Below, piece by piece: positions 9,198 through 15,835 of a stretch of 64,000 nt of DNA. Position 1 is the stretch's first letter; each line of letters starts with the position of its first letter. The notes under the pieces were generated by a model. That model ran no database searches, had not been told where the DNA came from, and saw nothing but the letters and a program-made list of their open reading frames with translations. The stretch covers positions 1 through 64,000 of the forward strand of contig CAJWZD010000003.1 in the NCBI GenBank assembly GCA_913049685.1. The letters run 5' to 3'. The position numbers and the translations under genes were made by a program. This DNA comes from an uncultured Fidelibacterota bacterium. Lineage in GTDB: Bacteria > Fidelibacterota > Marinisomatia > Marinisomatales > TCS55.

Positions 9198-10667
9198 ATG
9201 GCAAATCTTTTAAAAATTAAACATATCGAAAGCGACTGGCAGAAAACAAAAGATGGTGCAATATCAGTTGGCATTTACAATAGTTTGCAATTAAGTCGTC
9301 AATTACAAGGGGTTAATAAAAAATTAGGCCAAGCAATATCGCATTCAATTTCAGCGGGGATAATTAAAGGTAAAACTGGTGAAGTTAACAGAGTCGTTGG
9401 GAAAAAAGGCCTAGTCGTGTATGTCTATGGAATGGGCAAAAAAGGAAATCTTAATCCAGAATCTTTAAGAGTTTCTAGTGCTGCAGTAGCTAAAGCATGT
9501 ATCAACGATAAAATCAATTCAGTAGCATTCTTAATGCCAGCTGAGGCAAAAGATCTTGCCTCATCGCAAGCTACCGCAGAAGGACTGGTTTTGGGAAGCT
9601 ATCAATTTAATGAATTTAAAACAACTCGTGATGATATCTCATTGCTTGAATCTGCATCAATTGTTGGTGGTGATAAGAAATCAATAGAAAAAGGATCAGT
9701 TATAGCTAATTCAGTGTGTTTTGCTAGAGATCTTGAGAATAGGCCTGGAAATATTGCCACCCCATCTCATTTAGCTGAGCACGCCACGAAAATAGGAAAA
9801 TCCTCATCAGTAAAAGTCACTATTTTTGAAAGAGATAAATTTACTAAGATGGGTATGGGGGCTTTAGCTGGAGTTGCTTCTGGCACAGAAGAACCTCCAA
9901 AATTCATTATCATGGAATATTTTAATGGACCGAAAAATGAAAAACCAAAAATATTGGTTGGCAAAGGTTTGACATTTGACAGTGGAGGTATATCTATTAA
10001 GCCAGCTGCGAAAATGGACGAAATGAAGTATGATATGTGCGGATCTGGAGTTGTGCTTGGTGCAATGAGAGCAATTTCCCTATTAAAACCTAAAATGAAT
10101 GTTGTTGGAATAGTACCCTCAACGGAAAATATGAGCGGAGACAAGGCATATCGTCCCGGAGATATTTTAACAGCGTACAATGGAAAAACCATTGAGGTTT
10201 TGAATACTGATGCAGAAGGAAGATTAATTTTAGCAGATGCGCTTGCTTATGCTAGCAAGCATTATGATCCTGAATATATACTAGATTTCGCCACCCTAAC
10301 AGGAGCGGTAGTAGTTGCATTAGGACATGTTGCATCAGGTATAATGGGTACTGATCCGAAACTTATTTCTTATATTCAAAAATCTTCTAGCGTGACTGGA
10401 GAAAAAGTATGGGAATTTCCTCTTTGGGATGAATATCTTGAGCAGGTTAAGTCAAAGATTGCAGATGTTAAAAATTTGGGCTCACCCGGTCAAGCTGGTA
10501 CAATTGCAGGCGGTGCGTTTTTAAAGGAATTTGTTAAGAATGAAATCCCTTGGTGCCATTTTGATATTGCCGGTTCTGCATGGGGTGATAAAAAGTTATC
10601 TTATCAAAATCCAGGATCAGCAACAGGAGAAATTATACGCTTAGTTTTAGATCTTCTTAAAGTTTAA
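9198..10667 (+). CDS. pepA: Leucyl aminopeptidase, M17 family
   Basis: This cytosolic two-metal aminopeptidase releases N-terminal residues from peptides. The C-terminal catalytic domain contains GKGLTFDSGGISIKP with the metal-binding Lys256 and Asp, then MKYDMCGSG. The family signature NTDAEGRL follows at 336-343, with Asp338 and Glu340 as metal ligands and Arg342 as a catalytic residue. The length of 489 residues is standard. A good AAGGAT site lies 7 nt before the ATG. Its stop codon shares one base with the ATG of rmuC. In some bacteria PepA also binds DNA, but nothing here tests that. Confidence 0.96.
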   Translation: MANLLKIKHIESDWQKTKDGAISVGIYNSLQLSRQLQGVNKKLGQAISHSISAGIIKGKTGEVNRVVGKKGLVVYVYGMGKKGNLNPESLRVSSAAVAKACINDKINSVAFLMPAEAKDLASSQATAEGLVLGSYQFNEFKTTRDDISLLESASIVGGDKKSIEKGSVIANSVCFARDLENRPGNIATPSHLAEHATKIGKSSSVKVTIFERDKFTKMGMGALAGVASGTEEPPKFIIMEYFNGPKNEKPKILVGKGLTFDSGGISIKPAAKMDEMKYDMCGSGVVLGAMRAISLLKPKMNVVGIVPSTENMSGDKAYRPGDILTAYNGKTIEVLNTDAEGRLILADALAYASKHYDPEYILDFATLTGAVVVALGHVASGIMGTDPKLISYIQKSSSVTGEKVWEFPLWDEYLEQVKSKIADVKNLGSPGQAGTIAGGAFLKEFVKNEIPWCHFDIAGSAWGDKKLSYQNPGSATGEIIRLVLDLLKV

Positions 10668-11761
10668 TGAGTTTTATACCAATCATTATATTCATTTGTG
10701 GCTGTTTTTTTGGTGCTAGCATATTTTGGTTCTTTAATAAGTCGCAAAACTCCCTAAACAAAGATAGCCAAGCGAGTCTAAAGGCAGAGTTTGGAGACCT
10801 TTCAAAACAAGCTTTAGATCAAAACCTTGACAGTTTTCTCAAGTTAGCTGAAAATAAATTTTCAGAACTTCTCAAGACTTCTGATTCTCAGCTGAATCAG
10901 AAAAAAGAATTGATTGACCAATCAATAGTCGAGATGAAATCAAAACTAGAAGGCTTAGATAAATCAACGAATGAATTAAAAGGGCATGTAGAAAATTCAC
11001 AAAAAGGAATCGGTAATCTTGCTGAAACCACAAATCGACTTTCAAGAATACTTTCAAGTTCACAAGAGCGAGGCCAATGGGGTGAAAGAATGGTTGAAGA
11101 TATTTTAGGATTTATGGGTCTTGTTGAAGGGATAAATTTTGAGAAACAACTACAAGCAGGAGACGGAAGGCCGGATTTTACGTTTAAGCTACCTAATGAC
11201 AAACTGATTAATATGGATGTAAAATTTCCATTGGTACACTATGAAAACTATCTCAACACTGATAATGATAATGAAAAATTGAATGAGAAAAATGCATTTT
11301 TAAGAGATGTTAGGAATCATGTAAAAGCAATTGAAAAACGTTCGTACATCAATCCAGCAGAAGGAACTGTTGACTACGTACTCATGTTTATACCGAATGA
11401 AAGTGTTTATGCATTTTTAAATCAGGAAGATAAAGATCTTATAGATTTTTCTTTATCAAAAAAAGTTCTTTTGTGTTCGCCCATTACATTGTACGCGGTT
11501 TTATCCTTGATTAGGCAGGCCGTATCAAATTTTGCCATGGAGCAGAAAGCAGGTGAAATGCAAGACCTGGTTGGTGTTTTTAGAAAACAATGGGAACAGT
11601 TTAGTGAAAAGATTCATGCTATGGGAAAATCCATTACAGCCCTAACTAATCATTACGATGATTTAAAAGGTCCAAGATTTCGAGCTCTTGAAAAGCCAAT
11701 GGATAAAATAAACGAATTGCAATTAGGTCAAGATTCAAAAAATAAAACTCTTGAAGAATGA
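10667..11761 (+). CDS. rmuC: RmuC family DNA recombination protein
   Basis: The protein begins with one transmembrane segment (about residues 3-23). A long coiled-coil region rich in Lys, Glu and Gln follows (about 30-125). The RmuC domain comes next, starting at SSQERGQWGE and including GDGRPDFTF and the MDVKFPL strand that resembles the PD-(D/E)XK nuclease core. RmuC limits inversion of short repeats in enteric bacteria; its biochemical activity is poorly known. The length of 364 residues is somewhat short but complete. It overlaps pepA by 1 nt and the downstream lipoprotein gene by 4 nt. Confidence 0.93.
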   Translation: MSFIPIIIFICGCFFGASIFWFFNKSQNSLNKDSQASLKAEFGDLSKQALDQNLDSFLKLAENKFSELLKTSDSQLNQKKELIDQSIVEMKSKLEGLDKSTNELKGHVENSQKGIGNLAETTNRLSRILSSSQERGQWGERMVEDILGFMGLVEGINFEKQLQAGDGRPDFTFKLPNDKLINMDVKFPLVHYENYLNTDNDNEKLNEKNAFLRDVRNHVKAIEKRSYINPAEGTVDYVLMFIPNESVYAFLNQEDKDLIDFSLSKKVLLCSPITLYAVLSLIRQAVSNFAMEQKAGEMQDLVGVFRKQWEQFSEKIHAMGKSITALTNHYDDLKGPRFRALEKPMDKINELQLGQDSKNKTLEE

Positions 11762-12168
11762 GAAAAGCGTTTACAGCTTCTTTGCTTGTTTTTATTTCTT
11801 GTGTTGGGCCTGCAGATCCAGACCATGGGTTAGTTGAAAATCTACCTGCAATTGTCAATAAAAGTGATGCTTTTACATTTTCGTTGAGAGCAGATAACTT
11901 TAATTACAATGAGTCTTTTCCTCTTTCGCTTTCAATTTCATCAAACAAGAAAATGTTATCAACGCTAATTATCACTGATTTTAGTAGCAATGATTCATCT
12001 ATTATTCAGATTTTAGGTGATAATGATTCTGTTGTTTTTAATTATTTAATTAATTTAAATAAAACGCATTCAAGCTCCATTAATTATACAAACCCAAAGA
12101 CAGCGTCATTGAGATTAAATAGCTTCTCAGGAATTTTAAATTGGGTTATTACCGAATCTTCAGAATGA
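11758..12168 (+). CDS. Small predicted lipoprotein, function unknown
   Basis: This 136-residue protein has a short lipoprotein signal: Met-Arg-Lys, a hydrophobic core and Phe-Ile-Ser-Cys with Cys15 as the lipidated residue. The remainder is rich in Ser, Asn and Leu and looks like a small beta-sandwich. I recognise no family. The ATG overlaps the rmuC stop as ATGA, so it is probably in that operon. Its stop lies 4 nt from the stop of the convergent metalloprotease gene. Confidence 0.6.
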   Translation: MRKAFTASLLVFISCVGPADPDHGLVENLPAIVNKSDAFTFSLRADNFNYNESFPLSLSISSNKKMLSTLIITDFSSNDSSIIQILGDNDSVVFNYLINLNKTHSSSINYTNPKTASLRLNSFSGILNWVITESSE

Positions 12169-12172
12169 AAAA

Positions 12173-14593
12173 TTAATGCATTTGAGAACATTGAAATGAA
12201 GCACCTATTGGTGATCCAGGTGGAGCAATAAGAGTCTCAGCTACTTTAAAGTTTTTTGGATTTTTCTCAAAGTCTTTTAACCTTTTCTTTAATGCACTCT
12301 GATGAGCCCTCTCGCGAAAATCTCTACTGTTTTTTCGGATAATCTTATTTGAAAGTTCACTAATTGAAAGCATTGCTATAGATTTTACAGAAAGTGAACT
12401 CTTCTCATTTACAGCTAAGTTCATTAAATGATCAAGAATAACAAAATCAACACTTCGCTTAACCTCACCCTCAAGGCCTGTTAATGTCTTTTTTAGTAAT
12501 GTCTCCTCAACAATTGAATCAATTACCTTTTTCAGCCCTGGCTGAGAGCTGTCTCGTGAGTGATACTCAATTAATCTTGCCGCTCTCTCTGGGTTAAAAA
12601 GCATCTTTGCAGTCATTGTTGCTGCTGTTTCAGCTAAACTTATTGCGTCAAATGTTAACCCAGTTCTTGATTTAAAAGATTCTCTAGTTTTTCCTCTACC
12701 AGAAGCTCTTGGAGGAATAAGTTCAATAATATCTTCACTAAGCGTAAGAAAGTCCGGTTGTAATGTTTTAATAAGCACGTTTAAGGATTCTAGCTGCGAG
12801 TCTTCATCAAGCATCTCAGTTATCAGCTGTCCGTCACCTCTCAAAGCATAGCTATAGTTTAAACCTCCAATTATCTTAGCAGCAGCTTCAATTTGATAGC
12901 GATGAAGAAGGTATATGGGAACAATGACATCACCTAAATCGCTATATGGCTCTCCATATCGTATGTTATTTTCTCCAAAATTGCTAAGAGCGACCTCTCT
13001 AATGTTTATTATATTTTGAAGCTCTAAAGTAGGATTTTTACCATTGTCCCATAAATGACTTCCAGGATGCGCGGACCCTGGAGGTCTCGAGTCTTGATCG
13101 GTTATAAAAGTAATTCCGCGCTTTATTCCATTCTGAATTATTTCTTCTAAAGCCATATCTTCATCAACATTACTTGAAAAATCCTGATAGCCGTATGCTA
13201 CAGATATCTTATCCCATTCACCTATTCCAACATCGTATGCATTTTTCCATTCGATTTGATTTGAGTTATTAAGAGTTAGAGTAGGGTGCGGGTAGTCCAT
13301 TACTGATGCACGATCAAAAGTGCTTGCAAGGAAATTATGCTGTATCCCTATTGTGTGACCTATTTCATGAGCCACGAGTTGCCTGATCCTTGCTAAGGCT
13401 AGTTGTCGCATCGAGCCGGGTGTCGAGTTTTTATCCTTGTATGGAGCCAAAAGTCCTGCGGCAATTAAATAATCTTGCCTGAGCCTAAGTGATCCCAAAG
13501 ATACATTCCCCTTAATAATTTCACCAGTCCTGGGGTCTGAGATCCATCCTCCATATGACCATCCTCTTGTTGCGCGATGCACCCAATGTATCATATTATA
13601 TCTAATATCCATAGGGTGTGCCCCATCTGGAAGTATTTTTACTTGAAATGCATCTTTAAAGCCAGCTGCTTCGAAAGCCTGGTTCCACCATTTCCCACTT
13701 TCAATCATTGCGGTTTTAATAGGCTCAGGAACTCCTGGATCAATGTAATATACTATTGGTTCTTTTGCTCTGCTTATTTGAGCGCTAGGGTTTATCTTCT
13801 CTAGTCTATGTCGCTGAATATATCGGACATAAATAGATTCATCTAGTTCAGCAGAATAATCCTGAAAACTTAAAGGGTAAAATCCCGCTCTTGGGTCATG
13901 GGATCTGGGCGAATAATTTTTATCAGGAAGCTCCACCATTGAATGATGAAGTCGTACAGTTATTGCGCTAGGTGTGGGTGTAACTTGACGGATATATCTT
14001 CCTGGCTTTGAACCAACATATGTTATTATAGACTCAACATTACTATTTTTAGGAAAACTTAAAGTTTCACTTATGTTTATAGCTGAACGAGATTTATCAA
14101 CAGAATAATTTCCCATTTTTTGCGCTTTCAATTTATCAATAACCCCATGCGCATCACGCAAAAAGAAGTCGGTTACATCAATTAGCACATTTCCATTTTG
14201 TTCCGCTGCAATTTTAAATCCCCATAGCGTGGATTTAGCAAAACCATCTGCAACGGATTGTCGCTCTTTGACATCCTTTGTATCTGCTCTGAAGGAATAA
14301 TTCGGTTGTACCATTAATATCTTTGGACCAAAACGTTTGAAATAAACTATCCTCTCATTGCCTAATTGACCTCGATCGAGCCCTATGTCGTTTGAACCAA
14401 TTCCGGCAGTTAGCGAGTTCACGTAGAGAAACTCTTTCTCAAAATTCTTTACTTCAATCCAGAGCTTACCAGATGTGTTCTCCCAATACATATTGAAGTA
14501 TCCAGGTAATTTTTTCATATTTTTAGTTTTATCTGAAATTGATTCTGATAAACCCACGCTTATTATAAAAATAAGTAAAAATAATTTTTTCAT
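12173..14593 (-). CDS. Secreted zinc metalloprotease (DUF5117/DUF4953 type)
   Basis: This large exported protease has the extended metzincin zinc motif HEIGHTIGIQH, with His409, Glu410, His413 and His419 (numbered from the chosen start). A VMDYPHP Met-turn-like sequence follows. The N-terminal half matches the DUF5117-type domain seen in FCB and proteobacterial metalloproteases, and the zinc site lies in the DUF4953 part. I chose ATG 14593 because GAGG sits 8 nt upstream and it yields a clean signal peptide; an ATG at 14608 adds five residues. The length of 806 residues is typical. It is transcribed opposite to its neighbours, probably with the Gp157-like gene just upstream (21-nt gap). Confidence 0.88.
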   Translation of the reverse strand: MKKLFLLIFIISVGLSESISDKTKNMKKLPGYFNMYWENTSGKLWIEVKNFEKEFLYVNSLTAGIGSNDIGLDRGQLGNERIVYFKRFGPKILMVQPNYSFRADTKDVKERQSVADGFAKSTLWGFKIAAEQNGNVLIDVTDFFLRDAHGVIDKLKAQKMGNYSVDKSRSAINISETLSFPKNSNVESIITYVGSKPGRYIRQVTPTPSAITVRLHHSMVELPDKNYSPRSHDPRAGFYPLSFQDYSAELDESIYVRYIQRHRLEKINPSAQISRAKEPIVYYIDPGVPEPIKTAMIESGKWWNQAFEAAGFKDAFQVKILPDGAHPMDIRYNMIHWVHRATRGWSYGGWISDPRTGEIIKGNVSLGSLRLRQDYLIAAGLLAPYKDKNSTPGSMRQLALARIRQLVAHEIGHTIGIQHNFLASTFDRASVMDYPHPTLTLNNSNQIEWKNAYDVGIGEWDKISVAYGYQDFSSNVDEDMALEEIIQNGIKRGITFITDQDSRPPGSAHPGSHLWDNGKNPTLELQNIINIREVALSNFGENNIRYGEPYSDLGDVIVPIYLLHRYQIEAAAKIIGGLNYSYALRGDGQLITEMLDEDSQLESLNVLIKTLQPDFLTLSEDIIELIPPRASGRGKTRESFKSRTGLTFDAISLAETAATMTAKMLFNPERAARLIEYHSRDSSQPGLKKVIDSIVEETLLKKTLTGLEGEVKRSVDFVILDHLMNLAVNEKSSLSVKSIAMLSISELSNKIIRKNSRDFRERAHQSALKKRLKDFEKNPKNFKVAETLIAPPGSPIGASFQCSQMH

Positions 14594-14614
14594 GGAATCC
14601 CTCAACATTTTAAT

Positions 14615-15106
14615 TTATTTAATATCCAACCTGGTTTCTTGTACCAGCCTTGCGCCCTGAACAGAGGCTCCTTTTTTCAGCTCTTCCTTAACCTTATTTA
14701 CATTTACTTTTTCGATAACCTGCGTATCTATAAAATCTTTTGGGATCATTTCTTCATCCTCAATAATTGCTTTTGGAGGATTTTTTCGAATACTCAGATC
14801 AAAATGTACAGTTTCAATCTTATTAATTTGATTTTCCTCCATTACATTTTTGACATATTTTTTGATACCTAATACTTTTTTCTCTAATCTTTTTCTTCGA
14901 TCAGCCATATTTTTTTCAGCTTCCTTCATTGCTTGAATTGTTCCATTTAAATTTTGAGTATATTTGATAATGTTCTCAGATTTGGTTTCTAAAGTTCCTT
15001 TAAGGCCTTCAAGGGTATCAACTACAGCTTCATCTTCAATGTCTGTAAGTTCTTCAAGTGCATCTTTATAATCTTTTGCTATCTCGTATAATACTGGCAA
15101 TGCCAT
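14615..15106 (-). CDS. Siphovirus Gp157-like family protein
   Basis: This 163-residue protein has the complete outline of the Gp157 family first described from streptococcal phages. It opens with a leucine-rich start and a DTLEGLKGTLE segment (about 29-39). A long coiled coil follows, rich in Lys and Glu (about 40-105). The family C-terminal block has SIRKNPP near residue 107, IPKDFI, a Val-Lys-Glu-Glu-Leu-Lys-Lys-Gly stretch and GARLVQ. I chose ATG 15106 because AAAGGA lies about 7 nt upstream; an upstream ATG at 15160 lacks a site. The family is normally found in phages and prophages, where its function is unclear, but no other phage gene is adjacent here. Confidence 0.82.
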   Translation of the reverse strand: MALPVLYEIAKDYKDALEELTDIEDEAVVDTLEGLKGTLETKSENIIKYTQNLNGTIQAMKEAEKNMADRRKRLEKKVLGIKKYVKNVMEENQINKIETVHFDLSIRKNPPKAIIEDEEMIPKDFIDTQVIEKVNVNKVKEELKKGASVQGARLVQETRLDIK

Positions 15107-15298
15107 GTTTTTATCCTTTCGCTCATCATATATAAGTTGTAAAATTAAATTATAACTCAAACTGAATATACTAAAAGAATAATTGAAAATTAATGGCTTG
15201 TGAACATTTAGCTCTTGCTATGTAATAATTAATTTTAATTAATATTAAGAATTGTATTTTTTTGAAAAAAAGAAATTATAAGAAGGGGGAAGTTTATT

Positions 15299-15835
15299 AT
15301 GAGAATTAGGAAAGGCGATAAGATTTCATCTTTAAATCTACCGTCAACCAAAGGCGAAGATTTTACTATTAATGAGCTTGAAGGAAAAAAAGCATTAGTT
15401 ACGTTCTACCGTTTTGCTAGTTGCCCCTTTTGCAATCTTCGCATTAATGAGCTTACCAAAAGATATGACGAGCTTGGTGAAGGTTTTCAAATGGTCGCAA
15501 TATTTGATTCACCTATTGAAAATTTAAAAAAATACACAAATAAACATGATGCTCCATTTTGGATACTCGCAGATGAAAAAAATACATATTTTAATAAATA
15601 TTCAGTTGAGAAATCTTTTTTTAAGTTTCTCAAAGGTACAACTATTCGCTTTCATAGACTGCTATTTGCGATGATGAAGGGTTATATACCATCTATGATT
15701 CCTAAAGGCAGTTTTTCTACAATACCGGTAGATATCTTAATTGGTAAAGATGGACTTGTTGAGGAAGTATATTATGCAAAAGATACAAGCGACCATCTTT
15801 CATTTGATACGGTAAAAGAATTTTCTAAAAATTAA
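15299..15835 (+). CDS. Peroxiredoxin-like thioredoxin-fold protein with CxxC
   Basis: This 178-residue thioredoxin-fold protein belongs to the AhpC/TSA-like group. The active-site segment is FYRFASCPFC with Cys42 and Cys45, a CxxC rather than the single peroxidatic Cys of ordinary peroxiredoxins. This resembles the PRX-like2 subgroup. It would reduce peroxides or disulfides in the cytosol, as no signal peptide is seen. A strong purine-rich site (AAGAAGGGGG) precedes the ATG. It is followed after 25 nt by a small membrane protein and probably heads a short operon reading to 16459. Confidence 0.8.
   Translation: MRIRKGDKISSLNLPSTKGEDFTINELEGKKALVTFYRFASCPFCNLRINELTKRYDELGEGFQMVAIFDSPIENLKKYTNKHDAPFWILADEKNTYFNKYSVEKSFFKFLKGTTIRFHRLLFAMMKGYIPSMIPKGSFSTIPVDILIGKDGLVEEVYYAKDTSDHLSFDTVKEFSKN

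Follow-up and report, generated by a model that had tools for sequence, protein, structure and literature searches.

Why would the chromosome of an ocean bacterium keep a phage-type gene of the Gp157 family, and what does this gene do there? The window considered here, i.e., the whole 64,000-nt stretch of DNA analysed, comes from a member of the Marinimicrobia (SAR406) and encodes a 163-aa protein that matches the profile Sipho_Gp157 (PF05565) over its full length (147.5 bits vs a cut-off of 28.6, profile positions 2–162 of 162) as well as PHROG 253, “Mu Gam-like end protection” (134 bits), confirming the family membership given in the original prediction. Its start was placed at the ATG at 15106 rather than at the TTG at 15160, where the mechanical ORF list begins, because relatives show the 163-aa form, and the Shine-Dalgarno sequence already claimed for it, AAAGGA, precedes this ATG. 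The gene and its surroundings read as follows.

9198–10667, plus strand: leucyl-aminopeptidase-like gene, which we take to be pepA (synteny); syntenic marker and source of the marker tree
10667–11761, plus strand: RmuC family protein (PF02646, 218.4 bits); syntenic marker
11758–12168, plus strand: conserved 136-aa protein w11758, without Pfam match (synteny); syntenic marker of the slot
12173–14608, minus strand: met-zincin-type metalloprotease, DUF5117-DUF4953 (Pfam: DUF4953, 214.6 bits; DUF5117, 143.7 bits)
14615–15106, minus strand: Gp157/Gam-like protein, 163 aa (PF05565, PHROG 253, AlphaFold model)
15114–15119, minus strand: Shine-Dalgarno AAAGGA (sequence)
15299–15835, plus strand: AhpC/TSA-type protein, far side of the slot (profile search, synteny)

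A gap of 6 nt separates the Gp157 gene from the metalloprotease gene that follows it on this strand, the arrangement originally described, and in the sister genome G002 the two overlap in an ATGA stop/start; the two genes are probably co-transcribed. None of the nine neighbours of Gp157 scanned with Pfam belongs to a phage family (including integrase, tail, terminase, and replication genes), and in four sister genomes the ~20 kb around the gene keep their synteny and consist of ordinary chromosomal genes, so that the non-phage setting first reported for this gene stands. On the far side of the slot, three of these genomes (G001, G002, and G004) hold other genes and a sigma factor, with no AhpC/TSA-type gene there. 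The genome of the window itself (79% complete, 52 contigs) has a single Gp157 copy, and a search of it for the annealing family PF13479, in line with a check suggested with the original prediction, returned only sub-threshold matches (19.1 bits). Further along the same contig, beyond the window (G000:C3, ~75.7–84 kb; L015:11762–20001), lie at least five tandem paralogues of ~225–234 aa with N-termini like M(K)N(T/I)LARGGIEFLAVLLGI.

How firmly is the gene established in the chromosome? In the labels used here, g denotes a genus, f a family, and G a genome, the window genus being g1 within family f1. All five g1 genomes carry Gp157 at one syntenic place, with the metalloprotease beside it and w11758, RmuC, and pepA further along; none was found in the 35 other f1 genomes. 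The gene is under strong purifying selection in g1, with a dN/dS of 0.025 between the window copy and its nearest relative; silent sites are unsaturated in no other comparison with the window, and saturated in most of the other g1 pairs. The nine phage-free neighbours, the synteny in sister genomes, and this ratio together rule out a prophage or prophage remnant. Of the origins initially proposed, a domesticated copy thus agrees with a gene kept under selection at one place in every g1 genome, and a “remnant of transfer” does not.

Outside of f1, Gp157 was found in 23 of the 24 genomes of f15, a family of strongly reduced genomes (0.4–1.0 Mb), where its neighbourhood runs from pntA to pepA, and RmuC also lies between these two in two of the four f15 loci mapped. 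In genus g26 (family f8), diverged copies occur in G086, below the Pfam cut-off, and in G085, detected with an own profile; the protein at L081 scores 23.5 bits against PF05565 (cut-off 28.6) and 30.8 bits against PHROG 253 (E 4.9e-7), and the g26 copies are probable members of the family on these matches. Seven genomes in parts of f16, which belongs to another order, exceed the PF05565 cut-off and show conserved chromosomal surroundings; profile A3 for this family was built with four of these seven carriers, and all seven exceed the Pfam cut-off as well. Phylum-wide, 40 of 245 genomes pass this cut-off, and IMG/VR yielded one partial relative. Further Gp157-type matches lie near an integrase (G155), along with ERF, DnaB-like, and methylase genes (G136), or next to DUF932-type genes (G132 and G215, that of G215 identified by blast to G132). 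A match in G042 was set aside as a coiled-coil match within an 849-aa frame, presumably topoisomerase-like. One contig labelled SAR202 (Chloroflexota; L054, RQOS01000049.1) carries a pepA and a Gp157 that fall inside Marinimicrobia f15, and is probably misbinned or mislabelled.

Comparison with non-carriers revealed a feature that the original prediction had missed: the carriers have no RecBCD-class helicase-nuclease, and Gp157 sits in the slot of this enzyme. In non-carriers, the gene in the slot encodes ~1000 aa, in which N- and C-domains of UvrD are followed by a PDDEXK nuclease at the C-terminus; we assign this protein to the RecBCD/AddAB class by architecture only, since its scores do not come near the NCBIfam equivalog thresholds for addA and recB. 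The slot and the orientation are identical between Gp157 carriers and non-carriers in the g1 map: the order in G002 is sigma factor (−), Gp157 (+), metalloprotease (+), w11758 (−), RmuC (−), pepA (−), compared to helicase-nuclease (+), metalloprotease (+), w11758 (−), RmuC (−), pepA (−) in g5 and sigma factor (−), helicase-nuclease (+), w11758 (−), RmuC (−), pepA (−) in g3. Across 19 mapped RmuC loci of non-carriers, the enzyme was in the slot in 14, four contigs end before the slot, and in one genome (G037) the enzyme sits on another contig. The metalloprotease, adjacent to Gp157 in all g1 loci, adjoins the helicase-nuclease in genera g5 and g8 of f1 and g15 and g28 of f8. Similarly, g26 has RmuC, a 308-aa gene, Gp157, and a sigma factor where g15 and g28 have RmuC, a homologue of the 308-aa gene, the metalloprotease, and the helicase-nuclease. 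In f16, Gp157 adjoins a DUF3228 gene in three of seven carriers, the other four (g40) holding Gp157 elsewhere, and the DUF3228 gene of both g45 loci is adjoined by the helicase-nuclease. No chromosomal locus among those read contained both genes. The helicase-nuclease is split in G043 into a 680-aa helicase frame (C14:102134–104101) and a 312-aa nuclease frame (104145–105065), and G089 and G090 each carry a nuclease frame of this class that is 310 aa long.

This alternation extends to whole genomes. Within the 130 genomes of the order, the enzyme (PF12705 PDDEXK at 128 bits or more, among the matches listed, which reach down to ~71 bits) was present in none of 30 Gp157 carriers and in 81 of 100 non-carriers (Fisher 7e-17, kinship ignored), five of these 81 being represented by frames of 267–312 aa at contig edges or in split genes. 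Of the 30 carriers, 28 exceed the Pfam cut-off; the two from g26 are G086, whose score falls short of it, and G085, which came up only with an alignment that includes its congener, and leaving these two out makes the count 0 of 28. None of the eight carriers with at least 90% completeness, which all belong to f15, has the enzyme. A full-length enzyme query against 31 genomes, including 21 carriers, yielded PcrA-sized or smaller frames, or nothing, in the carriers. In the second order (41 genomes), the enzyme was absent from all seven Gp157 carriers and present in 20 of the 34 others (18 at 118 bits or more, and two variants of ~915 aa). The exclusion thus holds for mapped chromosomal copies in the sampled genomes; truncated Gp157-like genes at contig edges in G189 and G191 (f20) occur in genomes in which the enzyme is also present.

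Weak PDDEXK matches were obtained in 20 of the 24 f15 genomes (E 9e-11 to 4e-7), and in the carriers G004 (7e-8) and G085 (3e-15). Those of G050 and G060 correspond to a Cas4-like PDDEXK gene of 237/238 aa close to Gp157 (L009:11682–12395 and L014:10574–11290). We considered the 237-aa gene as a possible remnant of the enzyme, which two comparisons (27.3 and 18.1 bits) did not support. With this gene close to Gp157, the f15 cluster resembles a phage exonuclease-plus-Gam module without an annealase.

What could a Gp157 protein do in such a slot? We read the window protein as a phage-type Gp157 that is fixed in the chromosome and passed on vertically, and whose branch probably belongs to the Gam family. 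Intermediates support this probable kinship with Gam: a G155 protein (L076:9576–10142) exceeds both Pfam cut-offs on the same residues (Mu Gam PF07352, 61.5 bits; PF05565, 37.1 bits), and a G215 protein (L080:3059–3682) passes for PF07352 (56.0 bits) and nearly does so for PF05565 (27.2 bits), a pair that could help to join the two families. The Gp157 of Listeria phage PSA reaches 25.7 bits against PF07352 (cut-off 28.3), and the window protein itself has no match to PF07352 at E 0.001. Profile comparison of Gp157 and Mu Gam with hhalign was weak (probability 23%, E 9e-4), and further comparisons gave 0.0059 vs 0.16 for a reversed control, and 0.097 with a chromosomal-only alignment. The AlphaFold model (mean pLDDT 81, pTM 0.41) consists of a long helix (26–91), a beta hairpin (96–105), and a small C-terminal helix; it matched viral Gp157 models in BFVD (11 matches at E 0.001, best 1.8e-7), while a Foldseek search of the PDB returned nothing at E 0.001 and VIA rows included coiled coils only, up to Z 4.7. 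The solved Gam structure 2p2u was absent from both the Foldseek and the VIA rows for this model of pTM 0.41. The acidic pI of the window protein (5.5 vs 7.8 for Mu Gam) counts mildly against DNA binding.

In eight of the 11 phage records viewed, hand-picked among 215 for neighbours and tree, an annealing protein is adjacent to Gp157: Sak4 in phages PSA, 187, and CHPC1148, an ERF-type gene in Abouo, phiCD27, and, with a weaker match, phiBB, and RecT in Vibrio 1.247.A and mEpX1. The neighbour is an exonuclease in MPK9, and a protein without assigned function in E2 and ctTUS972. For Firmicutes phages, the available part of one paper describes homologues of Mu-gam and orf157 that take the same position ahead of erf-ssb and sak4, from which an analogous function was inferred (PMC8093625). 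Mu Gam dimers, according to the accessible sections of two other papers, bind DNA ends and block RecBCD loading (PMC12407980), and are reported to promote end joining (review, PMC8987985). In the portions of the literature searched, we found no tested function of Gp157, and the open-licence papers searched included none joining SAR406 with RecBCD or Marinimicrobia with AddAB.

On this basis, we lean towards a reading in which a domesticated Gam-like DNA-end protector, with end binding presumed from Gam, stands in for, or permits the loss of, the helicase-nuclease that its carriers lack. Gp157 may work like Gam: it would bind broken DNA ends, putatively as a coiled-coil dimer, and shield them, and the capped ends, in place of resection by the helicase-nuclease, would enter RecFOR/RecA repair or be annealed or ligated. 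Since RecO is kept (20 of the 22 genomes examined, the exceptions being G003 and G004) and Ku was found in none of the 22, whether carriers or not, the routes left for capped ends would be RecFOR/RecA, annealing, or simple ligation, and Ku-type end joining was discarded as a missing partner. A Sak4 partner elsewhere in the genome was discarded as well, as only three of the 22 genomes have matches over the cut-off, the strongest (G004, 172 bits) on a phage-like contig and the other two at 27.8 and 30 bits. This phage-like contig of a g1 genome (L148, G004:C76:1–11436) carries Sak4-like and Cas4-domain exonuclease genes, with an uncharacterised 149-aa protein directly upstream of Sak4. The swap in the slot ties Gp157 to DNA-break processing as a predicted function, and a phage end protector found in place of an absent enzyme may have taken over part of the handling of DNA breaks. 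The gain of Gp157 may have caused, followed, or merely accompanied the loss of the enzyme.

The same pattern could arise by coincidence under genome streamlining, with the enzyme lost through genome reduction and a phage-derived Gp157 landing or surviving in a permissive locus, in an unrelated role. The small genomes of f15 would fit such a scenario, and enzyme loss does not require Gp157, since 19 of the 100 non-carriers of the order lack both (two with partial matches; three, G034, G097, and G107, at least 90% complete), as do several f16 genomes (G164, G171, G173 at 92% completeness, and G175). However, coincidence does not readily account for a slot and an orientation shared by g1, g26, and part of f16, for the strong purifying selection on Gp157, or for the complete lack of overlap between the 30 carriers and the enzyme, and genome size in g1 is no lower than elsewhere in f1. 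We consider it unlikely.

An ancestral coexistence, with Gp157 as a regulator or inhibitor beside the enzyme and each lineage later keeping one of the two, appears more doubtful still. In the tree of Gp157 proteins, one clade unites g1 with f15 (100/99), and f16 (100/100) and g26 (100/98) form separate clades; these chromosomal clades lie among phage rows in a tree whose deep nodes are weak and whose branches are long, and one of the three rows labelled mobile is the G155 protein, which is nearer to Mu Gam. A single clade of all chromosomal copies was not rejected (p-AU 0.092; 0.221 without g26), which, together with a slot that is identical everywhere, speaks for coexistence. Yet it would need many separate losses, no chromosomal locus read retains the pair, and a quick pepA tree nests g1 within f1 among enzyme-bearing genera (96 SH-aLRT) with f15 outside f1. 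From this placement, g1 and f15 imply two events, a transfer, or an ancestral coexistence followed by losses.

Finally, an anti-phage or superinfection role of a domesticated prophage gene is highly improbable: the accessible text of two papers connects Gam-type proteins with RecBCD/Gabija biology (PMC12407980) and lists Gp157 among the immunity genes of cryptic prophages (PMC6356513), but PADLOC returned no family at E 0.001, and Gp157 is distributed as a fixed core gene rather than in a variable island. The “defence-related” label thus found no backing, and the link to phage resistance first put forward has a thin basis: in the same available text the transcript goes down, to 0.4-fold, on phage challenge, and the link itself is drawn by comparison with an origin element of phage Sfi21 that is non-coding (PMC6356513).

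Beyond the window genus, we tentatively raise the possibility that the RecBCD-class enzyme of Marinimicrobia has repeatedly been displaced, at its own chromosomal locus, by an end protector of the phage Gam family, a non-orthologous swap of a nuclease for an anti-nuclease in which breaks would be capped and not resected. If so, abundant ocean bacteria, including ones with reduced genomes, would use a phage-type end protector instead of a RecBCD-class enzyme, with a bearing on break repair, DNA uptake, and phage encounters in such cells. The informative feature is the positional and phyletic alternation of Gp157 with the helicase-nuclease.

Among known systems, the window protein shares with the siphovirus Gp157 (PF05565; orf157, Streptococcus phage Sfi21 type) its full-length match, length, and layout; the window gene differs in being chromosomal, single, and fixed, without adjacent annealing or replication genes, and in sitting in a helicase-nuclease slot. 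With Gam of phage Mu (PF07352), the ties are the PHROG label, the intermediates that match both Pfam families, and the place beside annealing genes in phages, whereas the window protein has no direct PF07352 match and the host copy lives without the nuclease that Gam blocks. The enzyme of the slot, for its part, combines a UvrD helicase and a C-terminal PDDEXK nuclease in ~1000 aa as do AddA/RecB/AdnAB-type helicase-nucleases, from which its scores against the equivalog models set it apart, and it is a positional alternative to Gp157, to which it is not related.
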